Both the position numbers and the translations under genes were made by a program. A model generated the notes under the pieces. That model was given only the letters and a program-made list of their open reading frames with translations. It did not search any database and was not told the DNA's origin. This document shows, piece after piece, positions 43,921-52,831 of a DNA stretch of 64,000 nt (positions within the stretch are counted from its first letter, which is position 1; every line of letters starts with the position of its first letter). The DNA comes from Paenibacillus terricola. Its GTDB lineage: Bacteria; Bacillota; Bacilli; Paenibacillales; Paenibacillaceae. Location: the NCBI RefSeq assembly GCF_014779765.1, contig NZ_JACXZA010000002.1, forward strand, positions 496,001-560,000, given 5' to 3'.

Positions 43921-45034
43921 CTTGATAACCAAAGCGAGATTATTCGTACTCTTTGCCGCTGCAGCCGTGTTATGGTTATGGACAGCCTCTCATCCGGAGG
44001 CGAACGCACATGCGGAAGTCCCTCGAGGCAGAATCGAGCTTGACCAAACGTCATTTGTCGCCAAGTCGTGGCAGAGCGACGGCACTCACCTAACTGTCAT
44101 CAAGGGTAAACTGACTTACGGCGAACAACCGGTCGCTAATGCGCTTCTGCAAGTTAGACCGCAAGGAAGAAACATCGTGACGCGGGAGGATGGCTCTTTC
44201 GAGTTGCTCGTCGACCGTAGTCTCATTGCCTACAAACCCGTGAGCGTAGTGTCGGTCCAAGACGCCATGATCGCCGGCAAACCGATAGAGAGCGAAATGG
44301 CCGATTCCATTCTATCGGCGTCCTCAATGATAAGCGTCTACCATCCGATAGAGGTAACCAAGGTAGCGACTTCGGAGACAGACGCGAGCCGAGTCAAAGT
44401 ATATGCTCGGTTCATAATCGAGAAGAACGACAAGATTTCCTTTTTCCAAGTAGATAAATATCGGATATCGGGCAAAGTGGAGGATGCCAATGGCAGCCCG
44501 GTGAAGGACGCAATCGTATGGATTGACCGGGAAATCGGGGAAGGCTTCGCCAAGTCAACCCCGACTGATCGAAATGGGAGATACGAGATGTATTACTGGC
44601 CGGAGGAAGAGGAGACGAACCTTACGGTAATCGTCGGCACGCACCGATACACGCTGCCGGACGGCAAAGTCTTTATTCTTCCCCGAGATACGAGCGTAGA
44701 CATTCAGATCCGCCTGCCCAAAGAAGGCTTAATAATTGACGACAAATCTCCTAATCTAGTATGCACGACCTCGGCGGGAGCGAAGTACAACGGCCTGTTG
44801 GCCGGACTCGATGTCCCGCCTGGAACGCCTTATTCTGTGACGATTCCCGACCGTCAAGGCCGGTTCGTTCTGACGGTGCCGAAGGCCACATGGGAGAAAC
44901 ATCCTCTTTTTTTCGAAACCATACTAACGAAGTTCATCGCGCAGGACAAGGTGCTAAGAGCCGGGGACGAGCTGCCTATAGGTTTGGTTAAGCCAGGGGA
45001 CCAGGATCCAAGACTTGGTCACCTGCCGCGGTAG
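43921..45034 (+). CDS. Exported protein with carboxypeptidase-regulatory-like domains
   Basis: A 370-residue protein starting at TTG 43921 (LITKARLF), six bases after AAAGGAGA; the upstream open frame overlaps the dehydrogenase gene. A signal/anchor helix (LFVLFAAAAVLWLWTA) is followed by two beta-sandwich repeats of the CarboxypepD_reg/transthyretin type (GKLTYGEQPVANALLQVR...DGSFELLV and GKVEDANGSPVKDAIVWIDR...DRNGRYEMYY). There are no enzyme motifs. It follows the PQQ dehydrogenase by 78 bp without a terminator, so it is probably co-transcribed and may scaffold or present the enzyme. It overlaps the 3' end of pqqE by 16 bp. Confidence 0.7.
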
Positions 45035-46092
45035 GTATAGATAGGCGCATGATCATCGATTGAGCCGATCCGATCCGTGATTGCGAATCGATGGGGGGAC
45101 CACTTGCATACGGGATCCGCCGCTCGTGCGTCGCCGGTCAACAGGAAAGCTTGACAGCGGCATCCTCCATAATCTACCTCGCGGCGCTCACAGCTATGGC
45201 AAGGCTCCGGCATCCAATCGTAGCCTCGAAAAGCGTTAAAAGAAGGGGAATGATTCCATATCCATGCTAGATCGCGTTCTTTCACATTCTCGAATGACAA
45301 GCTCCGAATTTCAGATGAAGCCGTGCATGGCAATACTCGTCCGTCAGGCGCTACCGTAAGCGAAAGCTTACCCCAGCCGTTCATGCAGGGTTTCGGAAAA
45401 TCTTCATAATAATCAGGTAAGATCCATAGAAGTTCGATTTGATTGCCGAAGCGCTCAAGCGCCCGAGAGTAGGCGGCTTCGGCTTCTTGAAGCTGCTCCC
45501 TTCGTGGCAGCAACTGCTGGACATTGCGCAATGCCCAGCCGTAGTACTGGGCATTGGCCAACTCAAGACGCTGTGCTCCCCATTCCAAACAGAGCTCGAT
45601 CATTTCTTCGACCTGGTGTAGATTGGCCCGGTGGAGTACGACGTTCATATGCAAAGGGAGTCCACTCGAGCGAATCCGCTGTGCGGCTTGACGTTTCAAT
45701 TCATGCGCTTGGAAACCTGCGATTGAATCGGCAAGATTCGCGGATGCGGCCTGTACGCTGAGCTGAATGCTGTCGAGCCCAGCATCCGAGAGCTGCCGGA
45801 TGCGCTCTTCCGTCAGCCCTATGCCGCTAGTGATGAGATTAACGTAGAGTTCCGCTTCCCTGGCGCAGCGTACGAGCAGCTCCAGATCCTGGCGCAGCAG
45901 CGGTTCTCCGCCCGTGAAATGAACTTGCGCGACCCCGAGATCGGCAGCTTGCTTCAGCACGCTCAGCCACTCATTCGTCGACAGTTCATTCTCTCTGCGA
46001 TGAAGCTCGATCGGATTGGAACAGTAGGGGCAGTGAAGCGGACAACGATGCGTAACTTCCGCGGTCAAGGCATACGGCAAAACTAGCTGCAT
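45019..46092 (-). CDS. pqqE: PqqE, radical SAM enzyme of PQQ synthesis
   Basis: A 357-residue radical SAM protein. The start is ATG 46092 (MQLVLPYAL), within the last codons of pqqD; the longer frame is unlikely. The 4Fe-4S motif is C17-PLH-C21-PY-C24, followed by VHFTGGEPLLRQDLELL. A SPASM-type C-terminus binds auxiliary clusters (CMNGWGKLSL...VLPC, CHSCERREVDYGGCRCQAF, DPVCKWSP). PqqE links Glu and Tyr carbons in PqqA, the first step of PQQ biosynthesis, with PqqD as chaperone. It is the last gene of the pqqABCDE operon. Confidence 0.95.
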   Translation of the reverse strand: MQLVLPYALTAEVTHRCPLHCPYCSNPIELHRRENELSTNEWLSVLKQAADLGVAQVHFTGGEPLLRQDLELLVRCAREAELYVNLITSGIGLTEERIRQLSDAGLDSIQLSVQAASANLADSIAGFQAHELKRQAAQRIRSSGLPLHMNVVLHRANLHQVEEMIELCLEWGAQRLELANAQYYGWALRNVQQLLPRREQLQEAEAAYSRALERFGNQIELLWILPDYYEDFPKPCMNGWGKLSLTVAPDGRVLPCTASSEIRSLSFENVKERDLAWIWNHSPSFNAFRGYDWMPEPCHSCERREVDYGGCRCQAFLLTGDARAADPVCKWSPHRFAITDRIGSIDDHAPIYTYRGR

Positions 46093-46361
46093 AGCTCCAA
46101 CCAACCCCTCTCCGCAGCCGAAGCAATGAATTCGACGATATCGTCCCCCAGGCCCGTCTGAACATATTTCGCCTCGAGTTCCTCGATCATTTGCGCGATC
46201 GTTCGCTGACCGTCGCACAGCCGGAGAATGACTCCCGCCGCCTCGTTAAGCTCGACGACCCGCTCCGGCAGCAGCAGCAATTCCAACTGCCGGGCTTTGT
46301 CGTACTTCATTCGACCCGGACTGCGCAGCCTCGGCCGATCCGACAACGCCATGGCGCTCAT
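46083..46361 (-). CDS. pqqD: PqqD, peptide chaperone
   Basis: A 92-residue protein with the winged-helix RRE fold: ELLLLPERVVELNEAAGVIL, LCDGQRTIAQMIEELEAKY and IVEFIASAAERGWLEL are the standard PqqD motifs. It binds PqqA and delivers it to PqqE. Its ATG overlaps the pqqC stop by 4 bp, and its own stop overlaps the pqqE start by 10 bp, so translation of C, D and E is coupled. Confidence 0.95.
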   Translation of the reverse strand: MSAMALSDRPRLRSPGRMKYDKARQLELLLLPERVVELNEAAGVILRLCDGQRTIAQMIEELEAKYVQTGLGDDIVEFIASAAERGWLELCS

Positions 46362-47071
46362 CGGTCGTGATCTCCGACGGGGAATGCCAAGCTTAACGCG
46401 TCAAGCAGGGCCCAGAGGACATTACACTTGAACTGCAAAGCAGCGATCGCCTGTTCCTGTTCTCTGCGATCCCTGCATTCGCGCAAAACAAGGCTCAATC
46501 CATGATCAGCATCGCGCGGAGCTTGGGTCAGCCGGGATTGAAAGTAGGCGAGCCCTTCAGGACGAATCCATGGATACAACTGCTCGAAAACACCGATTCG
46601 CTTAGAGACAAGCGTAGGTGCGAATAGCTCGGTCAGGGAGGAGGCGACGGCGATAGGCCAGGGCTCCAACCGGCAAAAGTTGACGTATGCGTCAACGGCA
46701 AACCGGACGGCCGGAAGGACGTGGCGTTCATCGAGCATTTCGTCTCTCGGAATGCCTGCTGCTTCGCCCAATCGAATCCATGCTTCGATCCCGCCATCGC
46801 TGCCATCCCGGCCGTCGTGGTCGATGATCCGCTGAATCCATTCTCGGCGATCTTCGCGGGAGGGCAGCTTGGACAGGATTAGAGCGTCTTTGACCGGGAT
46901 ATTCTTTTGATAATAGAACCGGTTGGCGATCCAAGCCCGCAGTTGAACAGGGGTAAGCTTGCCTTCGTGCATGGCTATATGATAGGGATGCTTGTCGTGA
47001 TAACGTTCCTCTCCCACCTGGCGCAAGCGGGATGTGAATTGTTCGTTCGAGAGCAAATACGATTCCAACAT
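46358..47071 (-). CDS. pqqC: PqqC, PQQ synthase
   Basis: A 237-residue, all-helical oxidase that performs the last ring closure and eight-electron oxidation to PQQ without a metal. Landmarks are YHDKHPYHIAMHEGKLTPVQ, WIANRFYYQKNIPVKDA, DHDGRDGSDGGIEAWIRL and the C-terminal FKCNVLWALLDAL. The length is normal for the family. It starts directly after the pqqB stop (47072) and overlaps pqqD by 4 bp. Confidence 0.95.
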   Translation of the reverse strand: MLESYLLSNEQFTSRLRQVGEERYHDKHPYHIAMHEGKLTPVQLRAWIANRFYYQKNIPVKDALILSKLPSREDRREWIQRIIDHDGRDGSDGGIEAWIRLGEAAGIPRDEMLDERHVLPAVRFAVDAYVNFCRLEPWPIAVASSLTELFAPTLVSKRIGVFEQLYPWIRPEGLAYFQSRLTQAPRDADHGLSLVLRECRDRREQEQAIAALQFKCNVLWALLDALSLAFPVGDHDR

Positions 47072-47992
47072 CTAAACCTCCATCTCCATACCGTCGAACC
47101 CGATTTCGATGCCGAGGTCGGTAAGCGTACGCCGTTCCTGCGAATCTTCAAGCAGCATCGGGTTCGTATTATTGATGTGAACATACACCTTGCGGCGAGC
47201 CGGCAAACGCGCGAACAGCTCGGCGCTACCTCCGGGTCCGGCGACGGGAAGGTGGCCCATATCGGAAGCGCGCAGCTCCGATATGCCAAGTTCGCGCAGC
47301 TCTTCGCTGAGCCAGAACGTTCCATCCAGGAAAATGCAATCAGCGCTTTCCAGATGTCGCTCCAACGTCTGCGACCACGCCTCGATCCCCGGAGCGTAGA
47401 CAGCGATTCCGCCGGTTCTCAAGTCCGTTATGCGATAGCCGATGCTCCAAGGCTCCTGCTGCGCAGTAACTTCCCGAAGCGGACCCGCGCTGATATACCG
47501 AGGGGGCTTATTTCCCAAATCGAACGGACATACCAACAATTGTCCCCCAAATAGTGGGAAAGATTCCTCAGGCTTCGTCTCGTGCCACAGAAAATTTGCG
47601 AACGGTTCAACGATCCGTCTGACCGGAAAGCTATCCGCAAGCGCACCGAGAACAGGCTGCGTCGCATAGACATCGATGGACGAGCCTTGCCGGAGCCCAA
47701 GGAGTCCGGTTGTATGGTCTAATTCCGCATCGGTAAGCAGGATGGCTTGGATAGGGGAGCCGCGAAAAGAAGGGCCCGGATGGAGACAGACGTTCTCTTC
47801 CGTCTGAAGACAGACATCCGGGCTTGCGTTCAACAGAATCCACCGGCAGCCGTCCGGGCTTATGGCAAGCGAATCATTCCTCCGGGGGCGCGCGGACGGG
47901 TCGCCGGATCTCGCGCGTCTGCAATTAGGACAAGCGCAATTCCATTGCGGAAATCCGCCTCCCGCGGCCGATCCTAACAACTTAATAATCAT
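47072..47992 (-). CDS. pqqB: PqqB, metallo-beta-lactamase-fold hydroxylase
   Basis: A 306-residue PqqB. It opens with IIKLLGSAAGGGFPQWNCAC, the family hallmark, and has a zinc-binding CxCxxC near residues 19-24. LLTDAELDHTTGLLGLR is the PqqB version of the metallo-beta-lactamase HxHxDH motif, and YVHINNTNPMLLED lies near the end. PqqB hydroxylates the Tyr-derived moiety before PqqC acts. ATG 47992 follows AAAGGGGAG and lies 50 bp after pqqA. Confidence 0.95.
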   Translation of the reverse strand: MIIKLLGSAAGGGFPQWNCACPNCRRARSGDPSARPRRNDSLAISPDGCRWILLNASPDVCLQTEENVCLHPGPSFRGSPIQAILLTDAELDHTTGLLGLRQGSSIDVYATQPVLGALADSFPVRRIVEPFANFLWHETKPEESFPLFGGQLLVCPFDLGNKPPRYISAGPLREVTAQQEPWSIGYRITDLRTGGIAVYAPGIEAWSQTLERHLESADCIFLDGTFWLSEELRELGISELRASDMGHLPVAGPGGSAELFARLPARRKVYVHINNTNPMLLEDSQERRTLTDLGIEIGFDGMEMEV

Positions 47993-50068: not shown

Positions 50069-50108
50069 CCGCAATAGACATTGCGGAACACCGCAATCCG
50101 TATTGCGA
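50069..50108 (+). promoter_or_regulatory. ComA-box cluster upstream of comX
   Basis: TTGCGG aaca CCGCAA (50081-50096) is an exact match to the ComA consensus TTGCGG-N4-CCGCAA. It is flanked at equal 6-bp spacing by further half-sites, CCGCAA (50069-50074) and TTGCGa (50103-50108). ComA-activated promoters in Bacillus carry such a dyad plus a third half-site. A lone TTGCGG also lies at 49976-49981. Confidence 0.85.
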
Positions 50109-50130
50109 TGCAGCAGCATGATTCCAGTGT

Positions 50131-50136
50131 TATACT
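50131..50136 (+). promoter_or_regulatory. Candidate -10 of comX
   Basis: TATACT lies 22 bp after the last ComA half-site and has no matching -35, as expected for an activator-dependent promoter. Confidence 0.4.
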
Positions 50137-50184
50137 TGGGACAAGCAAAAGAATATACATTTTATATAAAAGGTGGTAATGACG

Positions 50185-50358
50185 GTGCTTAAAGAAGCGA
50201 TTGCTCAATTGAAGCAGAACTCCGGAATGATGACTCAATTTGTACAAGGCGATGTAGCATTGGCGGGTATTAATAGTAAACAACAGCAGGCGATGCTGGA
50301 CATCTTCAAAGGCCAGGAGACTGCAAAAGAGCAAGTTCGTGCTTTCTACTGGCTCTAA
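50185..50358 (+). CDS. comX: ComX-like competence pheromone precursor
   Basis: A 57-residue peptide. GTG 50185 lies seven bases after AAAGGTGGT; ATG 50179 is possible but too close to the site. The precursor layout is that of ComX: an amphipathic N-terminal helix (LKEAIAQLKQNSGMMTQF), a VxGxxxLAGI core, a KQQQAMLDIF helix, and a short C-terminal tail with Trp (RAFYWL). ComX is exported and processed, and in Bacillus its Trp is prenylated by ComQ. No comQ is present here. It is directly followed by a ComP-like kinase and preceded by a ComA box. Confidence 0.8.
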   Translation: MLKEAIAQLKQNSGMMTQFVQGDVALAGINSKQQQAMLDIFKGQETAKEQVRAFYWL

Positions 50359-50373
50359 TAATAAAGAAAGATT

Positions 50374-50406
50374 AAACCGGCACACTAAAATTGTAGCCGG
50401 TTTTTT
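50374..50406 (+). terminator. Terminator/attenuator between comX and comP
   Basis: AAACCGGC / GCCGGTTT around ACACTAAAATTGTA, followed by six T; it lies between the comX stop and the comP start, so comP is probably reached by read-through. Confidence 0.75.
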
Positions 50407-50422
50407 AAGGAGTTTAGGACCA

Positions 50423-52831
50423 TTGATTAACACGAAATATAGAAATTGGGTATTTCTATTGATCACGCTTATTATTACAGGCTGGCTGACCATGCTATAT
50501 TTTAGCATCCCATACATTGCTGTTCAATTAGACGAATCCAATGGCAAGTGGGTTGTATCCGCTTTGGACAGCAAAGCATGGGCCGCTCAGCAAGGAATTC
50601 AGCTAGGAGATATTGTAACGAATGTTGATCATCAACCGATTGAAGAAAAGAACCTAAAGGATCATTACGAAATTAATACTGCGACTAACATTACCGTCAT
50701 GAGATCTGGTAGTCTGTTAGAATTCGATTTCTCAGATATGTCCAAGAGTCCGATTCTGTGGAACCAATCCATTATTCCAATGGCTTTATTCGTATTGATG
50801 CTATCTTTCTCTTCGTTTATTGCCTACAAGAAGCCATATGACGACTCAGCTTCATTATTAATATTTTTTCTAATGTCAATATCCCTTGGATATTTGGCAG
50901 CATACGGAAATACAGTCGGGGATTTATTCTCGGCTATCGTTTTTGAGCTCACACTGACATTATCTCCCATATTGTTTATTCATTTTGTAAGTAGTTACTT
51001 TAGCAATATGGGAATTGTTATCATTAATAAACGAATTGTTACGATTGGATATGGGACGATTGGGATGTGGAATATCTTTTATTTATTCTACATTCTCGTT
51101 CACACTGGAAATCGAATTGCACCGTTATTTATTAAATATCAAGGGCTTATTATATTTATCACTGGGACTCTACTCGCAATGCTTATTCAATTCCGGATGT
51201 ATGTCAGGTATCGTAAGTCATCCCAACAAGCTTTAATGAAGTATATGATGATCGGCAATATCGCTTCATTTTTCCCATTCATTGCTTTAACACTTTTGCC
51301 CATATTGTTAATGGGAACGCCTTTTGTGAACGGCGGCATAGCGGTATTGTCTTTTTTATTTTTGCCATTAACTTACTTATATCTTGTTGTCTCTAATCAA
51401 TTATTCGATATCGAGTTTATCATAAGTAGGCTGCGGTATTATTTGATCCTTGCCATCTTGCCGACCCTACTATTCATGGGTGGGGTGAGTCTTGCCTTCA
51501 TCGGTACATCGATTAGCCCCGTTGCGTGGGGACGGATGTTTCTAGTCATTTACGTTTCAAGTATTCTTTTCTTGTATGCTATAGAAGCATTAGATCGCAA
51601 GTTTCGTAACATAGTCATTAAAGGTGCACACAGATTCGAGCAGAGTTTGGAAAGCTTCTCAGATCGAATATCTGAAGTGAAGAAGGTAAGCGAACTAGAA
51701 GAATGTGTACTGAAGGAACTGCTTGAATTGCTGCCGATTGATTCGGTTGGATTTATTGAATGCCGCAATGAAGATCAAGAGATAACGTTAAAACGAGCGT
51801 ACGGAAACGTCCCATTCAAGGAGTTATATTTGCAGCTGCATCGTAATTGGTCGAGTGCAAGAGTCGGGCAAGAGCTGAAGCTAACGAAAGGGATCTGTTA
51901 TAAGATCGGGCAGGGCAGCGGAACGCAGCATCTGATATGGATCAGCGACAAAGTCAATCATACGGAATTTAATCATGACGAGAAGATGTGGCTGCGCACG
52001 CTTATCACCCATGTCGGATTCGTGTACCAGAACCTTCAGCTCATCGAGGGACTTGTACAAGATCTTGATCTAAAGAGAGAAGAGGCCCCACCGTGGGTCC
52101 TTCGCCTGCTGTTCCGATTATCGGAGCAAGAAAGACGTAAGCTTGCCAGCGACCTTCATGACTCTGCTCTTCAGGATCAATTGGTATGGTATCGCAAGCT
52201 GGAGATGATCGTGAGCGACGAAGCGGAGCTGCCGGAGAATATCCGTTCGCAATTGAATGAGATAAGTGAAGGATTACTCGATGTCATCCACCAAATCCGA
52301 GAAACTTGCAATGAGCTTCGGCCTCCGTTCTTGAAGGAGATGGGGGTAATCCAAGCCATAGAGAATTTATGTACTTATGCGCAGTTGAATGCGAACTTCA
52401 CGATTACGTTCGACCATCAAGATCTTCGCGTGGAGCTGGGCGACGAATATGTGCTGGCGATCTATCGAATTACGCAAGAACTGCTGCGTAACGGGATGAA
52501 GCATTCGAAGGCGACACATGTCCATTTGCAACTCTACTACGAAGGGCAGAACATCCGTTATTGTTACAAAGATAATGGAATCGGTATCGAGATGGATCGA
52601 TTGCAGTTGTCCTTTGACCATATGGGTTTGGCTGGAATTCGGGAGAGGGTGTCCGGACTAGAAGGTGAGACGGTCCTGCGTACGGCGCCAGGCAAAGGAT
52701 TAGAAATCGATATTCAATTGCCGCTGCCGCTTGAAGACAAGGATCAGGATATTGAAAAGGACAATGTGAGGAGGATGAATGATAATCGTACACAGCCGGT
52801 AATGATATTCCCTCATTCCGCAGATTTATAG
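50423..52831 (+). CDS. comP: ComP-like sensor histidine kinase
   Basis: An 802-residue kinase counted from TTG 50423, ten bases after AAGGAG. An N-terminal helix (VFLLITLIITGWLTMLYF) precedes a PDZ-like outer segment (VVSALDSKAWAAQQGIQLGDIV). About eight further helices follow (residues 115-400). The cytoplasmic part has a HisKA_3 domain with the phospho-acceptor in LASDLHDSALQDQL and a HATPase_c domain (LLRNGMKHSKATHVHLQL, YKDNGIGIEMDR, MGLAGIRERV). This polytopic plan with extracellular PDZ-like loop is that of ComP, the ComX receptor that phosphorylates ComA. ComA is not in the window. Confidence 0.88.
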   Translation: MINTKYRNWVFLLITLIITGWLTMLYFSIPYIAVQLDESNGKWVVSALDSKAWAAQQGIQLGDIVTNVDHQPIEEKNLKDHYEINTATNITVMRSGSLLEFDFSDMSKSPILWNQSIIPMALFVLMLSFSSFIAYKKPYDDSASLLIFFLMSISLGYLAAYGNTVGDLFSAIVFELTLTLSPILFIHFVSSYFSNMGIVIINKRIVTIGYGTIGMWNIFYLFYILVHTGNRIAPLFIKYQGLIIFITGTLLAMLIQFRMYVRYRKSSQQALMKYMMIGNIASFFPFIALTLLPILLMGTPFVNGGIAVLSFLFLPLTYLYLVVSNQLFDIEFIISRLRYYLILAILPTLLFMGGVSLAFIGTSISPVAWGRMFLVIYVSSILFLYAIEALDRKFRNIVIKGAHRFEQSLESFSDRISEVKKVSELEECVLKELLELLPIDSVGFIECRNEDQEITLKRAYGNVPFKELYLQLHRNWSSARVGQELKLTKGICYKIGQGSGTQHLIWISDKVNHTEFNHDEKMWLRTLITHVGFVYQNLQLIEGLVQDLDLKREEAPPWVLRLLFRLSEQERRKLASDLHDSALQDQLVWYRKLEMIVSDEAELPENIRSQLNEISEGLLDVIHQIRETCNELRPPFLKEMGVIQAIENLCTYAQLNANFTITFDHQDLRVELGDEYVLAIYRITQELLRNGMKHSKATHVHLQLYYEGQNIRYCYKDNGIGIEMDRLQLSFDHMGLAGIRERVSGLEGETVLRTAPGKGLEIDIQLPLPLEDKDQDIEKDNVRRMNDNRTQPVMIFPHSADL

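Follow-up and report, generated by a model that had tools for sequence, protein, structure and literature searches.

The comX-comP locus described here is a second, paralogous pheromone/receptor cassette, present beside a canonical comQXPA system in the same Paenibacillus genome, and represents a new form of ComQXPA quorum sensing. It lies in a 64,000-nt stretch of DNA (the window), which covers positions 496001-560000 of contig C10 in genome G000, a draft assembly of 6.78 Mb in 17 contigs with a completeness of 100%. The genes of the window cassette are called comX2 and comP2, and their canonical counterparts comX1 and comP1. The window locus has the following features:

50069..50108, no strand assigned: predicted ComA-type binding cluster with four half-sites (motif as in PMC4797271)
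50069-50074: half-site CCGCAA within this cluster
50081-50096: perfect inverted repeat TTGCGG-AACA-CCGCAA, with the halves TTGCGG at 50081-50086 and CCGCAA at 50091-50096
50103-50108: half-site TTGCGA within this cluster
50131..50136, plus strand: probable -10 hexamer TATACT of the comX2 promoter, column-conserved in the genus alignment
50179..50358, plus strand: comX2, ComX pheromone prepeptide of 59 aa with the tail RAFYWL
50374..50403, plus strand: stem-loop AACCGGC...GCCGGTT followed by a T-run, between comX2 and comP2 (z -2.1)
50423..52831, plus strand: comP2, ComP-type receptor histidine kinase of 802 aa, assigned by Pfam domains and similarity to ComP1

The comX2 product ends in KEQVRAFYWL, with the Trp at the penultimate position, and its ATG start is preceded by AAAGGTGG. 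In a Pfam profile search it scores 33.1 bits against PF05952, above the curated cut-off of 25, which bears out the ComX-like peptide ending in RAFYWL that had been recognized in the original prediction. ComX precursors are described as 52-73 aa long with a Trp within the last 5-10 residues (PMC4008528); the length and the Trp position of the comX2 product agree with this description. The comP2 gene starts with TTG, preceded by AAGGAG. Its product carries HisKA_3 and HATPase_c domains above the Pfam cut-off, a sub-threshold PDZ match and about nine hydrophobic segments, as expected for the polytopic N-terminal sensor of a ComP receptor kinase, the type to which it had originally been assigned. 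None of the NCBIfam models for ComX, ComP, ComQ and ComA gave a match over its cut-off. The comX2 promoter has a poor -35 region, which fits an activated promoter. The 6-bp core of the stem-loop is conserved in 11 loci of the genus (the window and ten others), with 97% of the cells paired and one compensatory column (A-U/G-C), and a T-run follows it in most solitary copies; possibly it is a partial terminator, lowering comP relative to comX. Elsewhere in the window (45019-47992, minus strand) there is a PQQ-biosynthesis-like run of genes (Lactamase_B_2/PqqB-like, TENA/PqqC-like, PqqD and radical-SAM SPASM/PqqE-like), which is unexpected in Paenibacillus.

Neither comQ nor comA was found near the window locus, which consists of comX and comP only, rather than of the four adjacent same-strand genes of a canonical comQXPA locus. 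The absence of both genes had been predicted, and it holds for this locus and not for the genome, since a complete comQXPA locus is present on contig C2:

L007 7852-6938, minus strand: canonical comQ
L007 6751-6569, minus strand: canonical comX (comX1)
L007 6496-4139, minus strand: canonical comP (comP1)
L007 4142-3477, minus strand: canonical comA

This locus supplies both the distant ComQ and the ComA encoded elsewhere that the original prediction had guessed at, and for which it had proposed a search of the rest of the genome. The predicted anatomy, a ComX-ComP locus without comQ and comA, is correct; it reflects no gene loss, the locus being instead a second paralogous cassette that is conserved in relatives. 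The PF05952 search of the genome found two comX genes, the second being the one on contig C2. Among four members of the polyprenyl-synthase family in the genome, the C2 copy alone adjoins a comX. It contains the motifs DDLQD (FARM) and QINNDVEG (a pseudo-SARM beginning with N-D), and this combination is the signature of ComQ versus FPP synthases (PMC5331326). The C2 ComA is the genome's best match to B. subtilis ComA; its identification is based on the genes around it and on how it aligns with the ComA domain in the PDB. R183 and Y187 of B. subtilis ComA, two residues reported as contacting the major groove or bases of DNA, are conserved in it. The C2 locus thus holds the sole ComQ and the sole close ComA orthologue found in the genome. 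A gene of the lantibiotic dehydratase C-terminal type is located directly upstream of the canonical comQ (L007 8057-9049, minus strand).

The two cassettes are paralogous. ComX1 and ComX2 are 64% identical over 56-58 residues and have KEQVR in common, and ComP2 is 59% identical to ComP1 over 779 aa. The identity between the two receptors is unevenly distributed: their sensors share 47% of residues, against 80% for the DHp domains and 77% for the ATPase domains. With the genome's remaining HisKA_3 kinases, the ComP DHp domain reaches at most 27% identity over 65-67 residues, or aligns in fragments only. Because the DHp domains of ComP1 and ComP2 are so similar, and the other HisKA_3 kinases so distant from them, the simplest reading is that both receptors would address the same ComA.

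The genus comparison included six genomes, namely the window genome and five congeners (G001-G005), of which G001 is Paenibacillus cellulosilyticus CECT 5696 and G003 is P. kobensis NBRC 15729. All six carry comX and comQ, and each of the five congeners has a comA orthologue, with 85-96% identity to the C2 ComA. Orthologous solitary comX-comP cassettes are found in three of the five congeners (L079 in G001, L084 in G003 and L080 in G005); in all three genomes comQ and comA lie at other places. G003 has an additional tandem locus with the order comQ-X-P-X-P-A, and in G005 other DNA separates comQ from comX-comP-comA. The remaining two congeners, G002 (L083) and G004 (L082), show the order comQ-P-X-P, having lost the first comX; a comX remnant persists in L082, reading MMIKNIIILLKPY*. 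In both loci (L082 4300-4720, L083 10600-11000) comP directly follows comQ, as a receptor without its own signal.

The family and class were sampled with 113 stretches, of which 88 contain comQXPA; outside the genus, only two, L187 (G568) and L188 (G593), contain a solitary comX-comP pair. Both belong to another family, with a complete locus elsewhere in each genome, and solitary cassettes have arisen there independently; the same fast-sensor pattern is seen in them. Other arrangements were also observed. Five Paenibacillaceae stretches (g9: L095, L116, L118, L126 and L137) carry comQ-comX without nearby comP or comA and are possible signal-only loci, and three (g10: L112, L113 and L117) carry comX-comP-comA without a detectable adjacent comQ. 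The Anoxybacillus amylolyticus plasmid pDSM15939_1 (L244) has a polyprenyl synthetase-comX-kinase-regulator locus beside the sporulation killing factor genes skfA and skfB. Plasmid carriage of the cassette was considered and rejected: matches at E 1e-30 were limited to 5 plasmid records, each with an identity of 28-32%.

In the ComP tree, the four solitary ComPs of the genus fall into a single clade (100/100), which is nested with the canonical copies of G003 and G005. Their sensors have diverged rapidly. Between G000 and G001, the solitary sensor has a dN of 0.219 at a dS of 0.63, versus a dN of 0.053 at a dS of 0.59 for the canonical sensor, an approximately fourfold difference in dN at about equal dS. 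The kinase halves (DHp and ATPase) are conserved alike in solitary and canonical copies, with a dN of 0.03-0.05 and a dN/dS of 0.03-0.09. ComP2 conservation falls most steeply across residues 211-240, which separate two segments predicted to lie in the membrane. Since dN/dS of the solitary sensor is 0.35, positive selection is not demonstrated and relaxed constraint could contribute. The pheromone tails differ as well: in G000 and G001 they read AFYWL and KLLWL in the solitary copies, versus NYVWWAGT and NLTWWAGT in the canonical ones. Although the tails are divergent, a Trp near the C-terminus is found in every intact ComX of the genus. The independent pair G568 and G593 shows 64% identity between the solitary sensors and 80% between the canonical ones, and the DHp domains are 92-94% identical in both. 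A decaying duplicate is ruled out by the dN/dS of ComP2 from residue 381 on (0.03-0.10) and by that of the comX2 leader against its P. cellulosilyticus orthologue (0.12). Likewise, the possibility that the small comX2 ORF is non-coding is ruled out by conservation of its leader, ribosome site and reading frame in four species. A fossil of the comA start was also sought in the ComP2 tail; some similarity is visible, with shuffle p-values from 0.002 to 0.7, and excision of the cassette from a comXP-comA block is therefore not claimed.

B. subtilis ComA binds TTGCGG-N4-CCGCAA, often together with downstream half-sites, and ComA promoters have a downstream direct repeat TTGCGG-N5-TTGCGG (PMC4797271). 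The dyad reported in the original prediction is indeed perfect and belongs to a cluster of four half-sites. It is located at about -98 from comX2 and constitutes a predicted ComA site with the inverted repeat of ComA promoters; an RE3-like TTGCGA occurs 6 nt past it, and no clear copy of RE4 was seen. In the whole genome the perfect 16-mer occurs at two places, the other being inside a 793-aa ORF, so that the window box is the sole perfect intergenic ComA inverted repeat. When the region upstream of comX2 was dinucleotide-shuffled 400 times, no perfect box arose, and the region has 6 half-sites versus 1.9 expected (p 0.007). The rarity in the genome, the shuffles and the half-site count together rule out a chance box. 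The box is also conserved ahead of the solitary cassettes L079, L080 and L084, and likewise of L081 and L168, about 97 to 105 nt before comX. Versions with 0-2 mismatches stand at these distances in seven loci of the genus, and another precedes the comX remnant of L082. In G000 and G001, the promoters of canonical comX contain degenerate versions only. A perfect box at -97 is found in another genus (L123 and L127). Among all non-genus loci, the inverted repeat reaches p 0.05 or better in 19 of 100 comX upstream regions and in 3 of 96 comQ upstream regions. This enrichment upstream of comX, and not of comQ, across genera supports the view that transcriptional control of comX by ComA is probably a recurring feature in the family. 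A genome scan for one-mismatch boxes found 33 sites versus 21 in the control, nearly all of them inside ORFs, and no ComA regulon is claimed from it.

Taken together, the sequence data make it rather likely that the window cassette is a second, satellite ComX-ComP channel, which would use ComQ and ComA in trans, be switched on by ComA and diversify rapidly. In this reading ComX2 would be prenylated by the C2 ComQ at its penultimate Trp; after export, the prenylated peptide would be recognized by ComP2 as its own receptor, and phosphate would pass from ComP2 to the one ComA that both channels share. The canonical ComX1/ComP1 channel may be the first to raise ComA~P, which may then bind the perfect box and turn on comX2-comP2. 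In such a hierarchy the first channel would induce the second, and the second would in turn reinforce the first by positive feedback. The cassette is probably an old duplicate, in which the tail and the sensor diverge fast between species while the kinase half stays tied to ComA, and the satellite could thus be a private, species-specific channel added to the conserved one. There is about an even chance for the fuller form of this proposal, with two activation-type ComX-ComP channels (three in P. kobensis) acting through one ComQ and one ComA, and with the ComA-induced satellite as a diversifying private pherotype. The solitary cassettes of the L187 and L188 lineage showed no ComA box in their upstream regions, which indicates that the hierarchy is not general.

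HisKA_3 kinases with the H-D-x-x-x-Q motif, such as NarX, can dephosphorylate their own regulator. The motif is kept in both ComPs as HDSALQ, and ComP2 could, when unliganded, be mainly a ComA~P phosphatase. It would then act as a brake or AND gate, with the cassette repressing the quorum response as long as its own pheromone is scarce. In theory, such "dominant repression" is a design by which an extra system can invade through facultative cheating, and induction of the cassette by ComA would in that case amount to a delayed negative feedback. This main alternative matters because, in a combined model and experiment, selection acted against an activating ComP-ComX pair that had been added and in favour of an extra system that represses (PMC4771773). 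However, B. subtilis ComP has been characterized as an activating receptor, and HDSALQ, which the canonical ComP has as well, does not set ComP2 apart. We consider the brake unlikely.

Two other alternatives concern the missing neighbours. ComX2 may not be prenylated by ComQ and may act unmodified or with another modification. In line with this, comQ is not adjacent to comX2, the Trp is penultimate, and ComQ substrates have no known consensus rules (PMC5331326). But the motif and overall similarity shared by ComX1 and ComX2 argue against this, and an unmodified peptide, which the original prediction had allowed for, is less likely because every cassette-bearing genome has a ComQ with ComQ-specific motifs and every intact ComX of the genus retains the Trp despite divergent tails. 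The chance of this alternative as a whole is slim. Alternatively, ComP2 may have been rewired to another response regulator in an insulated second pathway: comA is not adjacent, and more than ten other NarL-type regulators in the genome have E below 1e-10 to B. subtilis ComA. This is very improbable given that the ComP2 DHp domain shares 80% identity with that of the canonical ComP and is equally constrained, with the other HisKA_3 kinases far from it. The satellite channel with shared ComQ and ComA is the reading that we prefer.

Among the open-licence PubMed Central papers retrieved, no description of solitary comX-comP cassettes was found. As in B. subtilis ComQXPA, a ComX prepeptide with a Trp near the C-terminus is followed by a polytopic HisKA_3 receptor kinase, a ComA-type inverted repeat is present, and signal and sensor evolve fast. 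In contrast to B. subtilis, comQ and comA lie in a complete second locus of the genome, there are two pheromone/receptor pairs per ComA, and a ComA box stands directly upstream of comX. Convergence of two ComX-ComP pairs on one ComA is known from the engineered B. subtilis strain ExtraCom, which carries a second ComQXP and was outcompeted by the wild type, and ComP-ComX has been argued to be single-copy, a second pair being selected against (PMC4771773). A simple OR-type parallel channel is therefore predicted to be disfavoured. Multiple activating systems are commonly hierarchical (PMC4771773), and a ComA box ahead of the second pair fits this form. Unlike ExtraCom, a construct with its own comQ, the present arrangement is natural, conserved in four species and placed under a ComA box. 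The genus is thus a natural counter-example to single-copy ComP-ComX, with a conserved satellite pair that shares modifying enzyme and regulator; the promoter of this pair suggests hierarchy, and a second family has a similar solitary cassette independently. The arrangement bears on why bacteria gain extra quorum signals, and it makes the evolution of multi-signal quorum sensing, as well as signal-receptor specificity after duplication, testable in culturable soil bacteria (P. cellulosilyticus and P. kobensis). More than one com locus per genome is also found in Lysinibacillus, where the portion of PMC4008528 used here describes two comQXPA loci with canonical or hypothetical comX and no solitary comX-comP. 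Finally, the Rap-Phr expansion likewise consists of duplicated, diverging signal-receptor pairs acting on ComA (PMC5199041); Raps, however, are intracellular repressors, whereas in the present case the duplication involves the activating receptor in the membrane.
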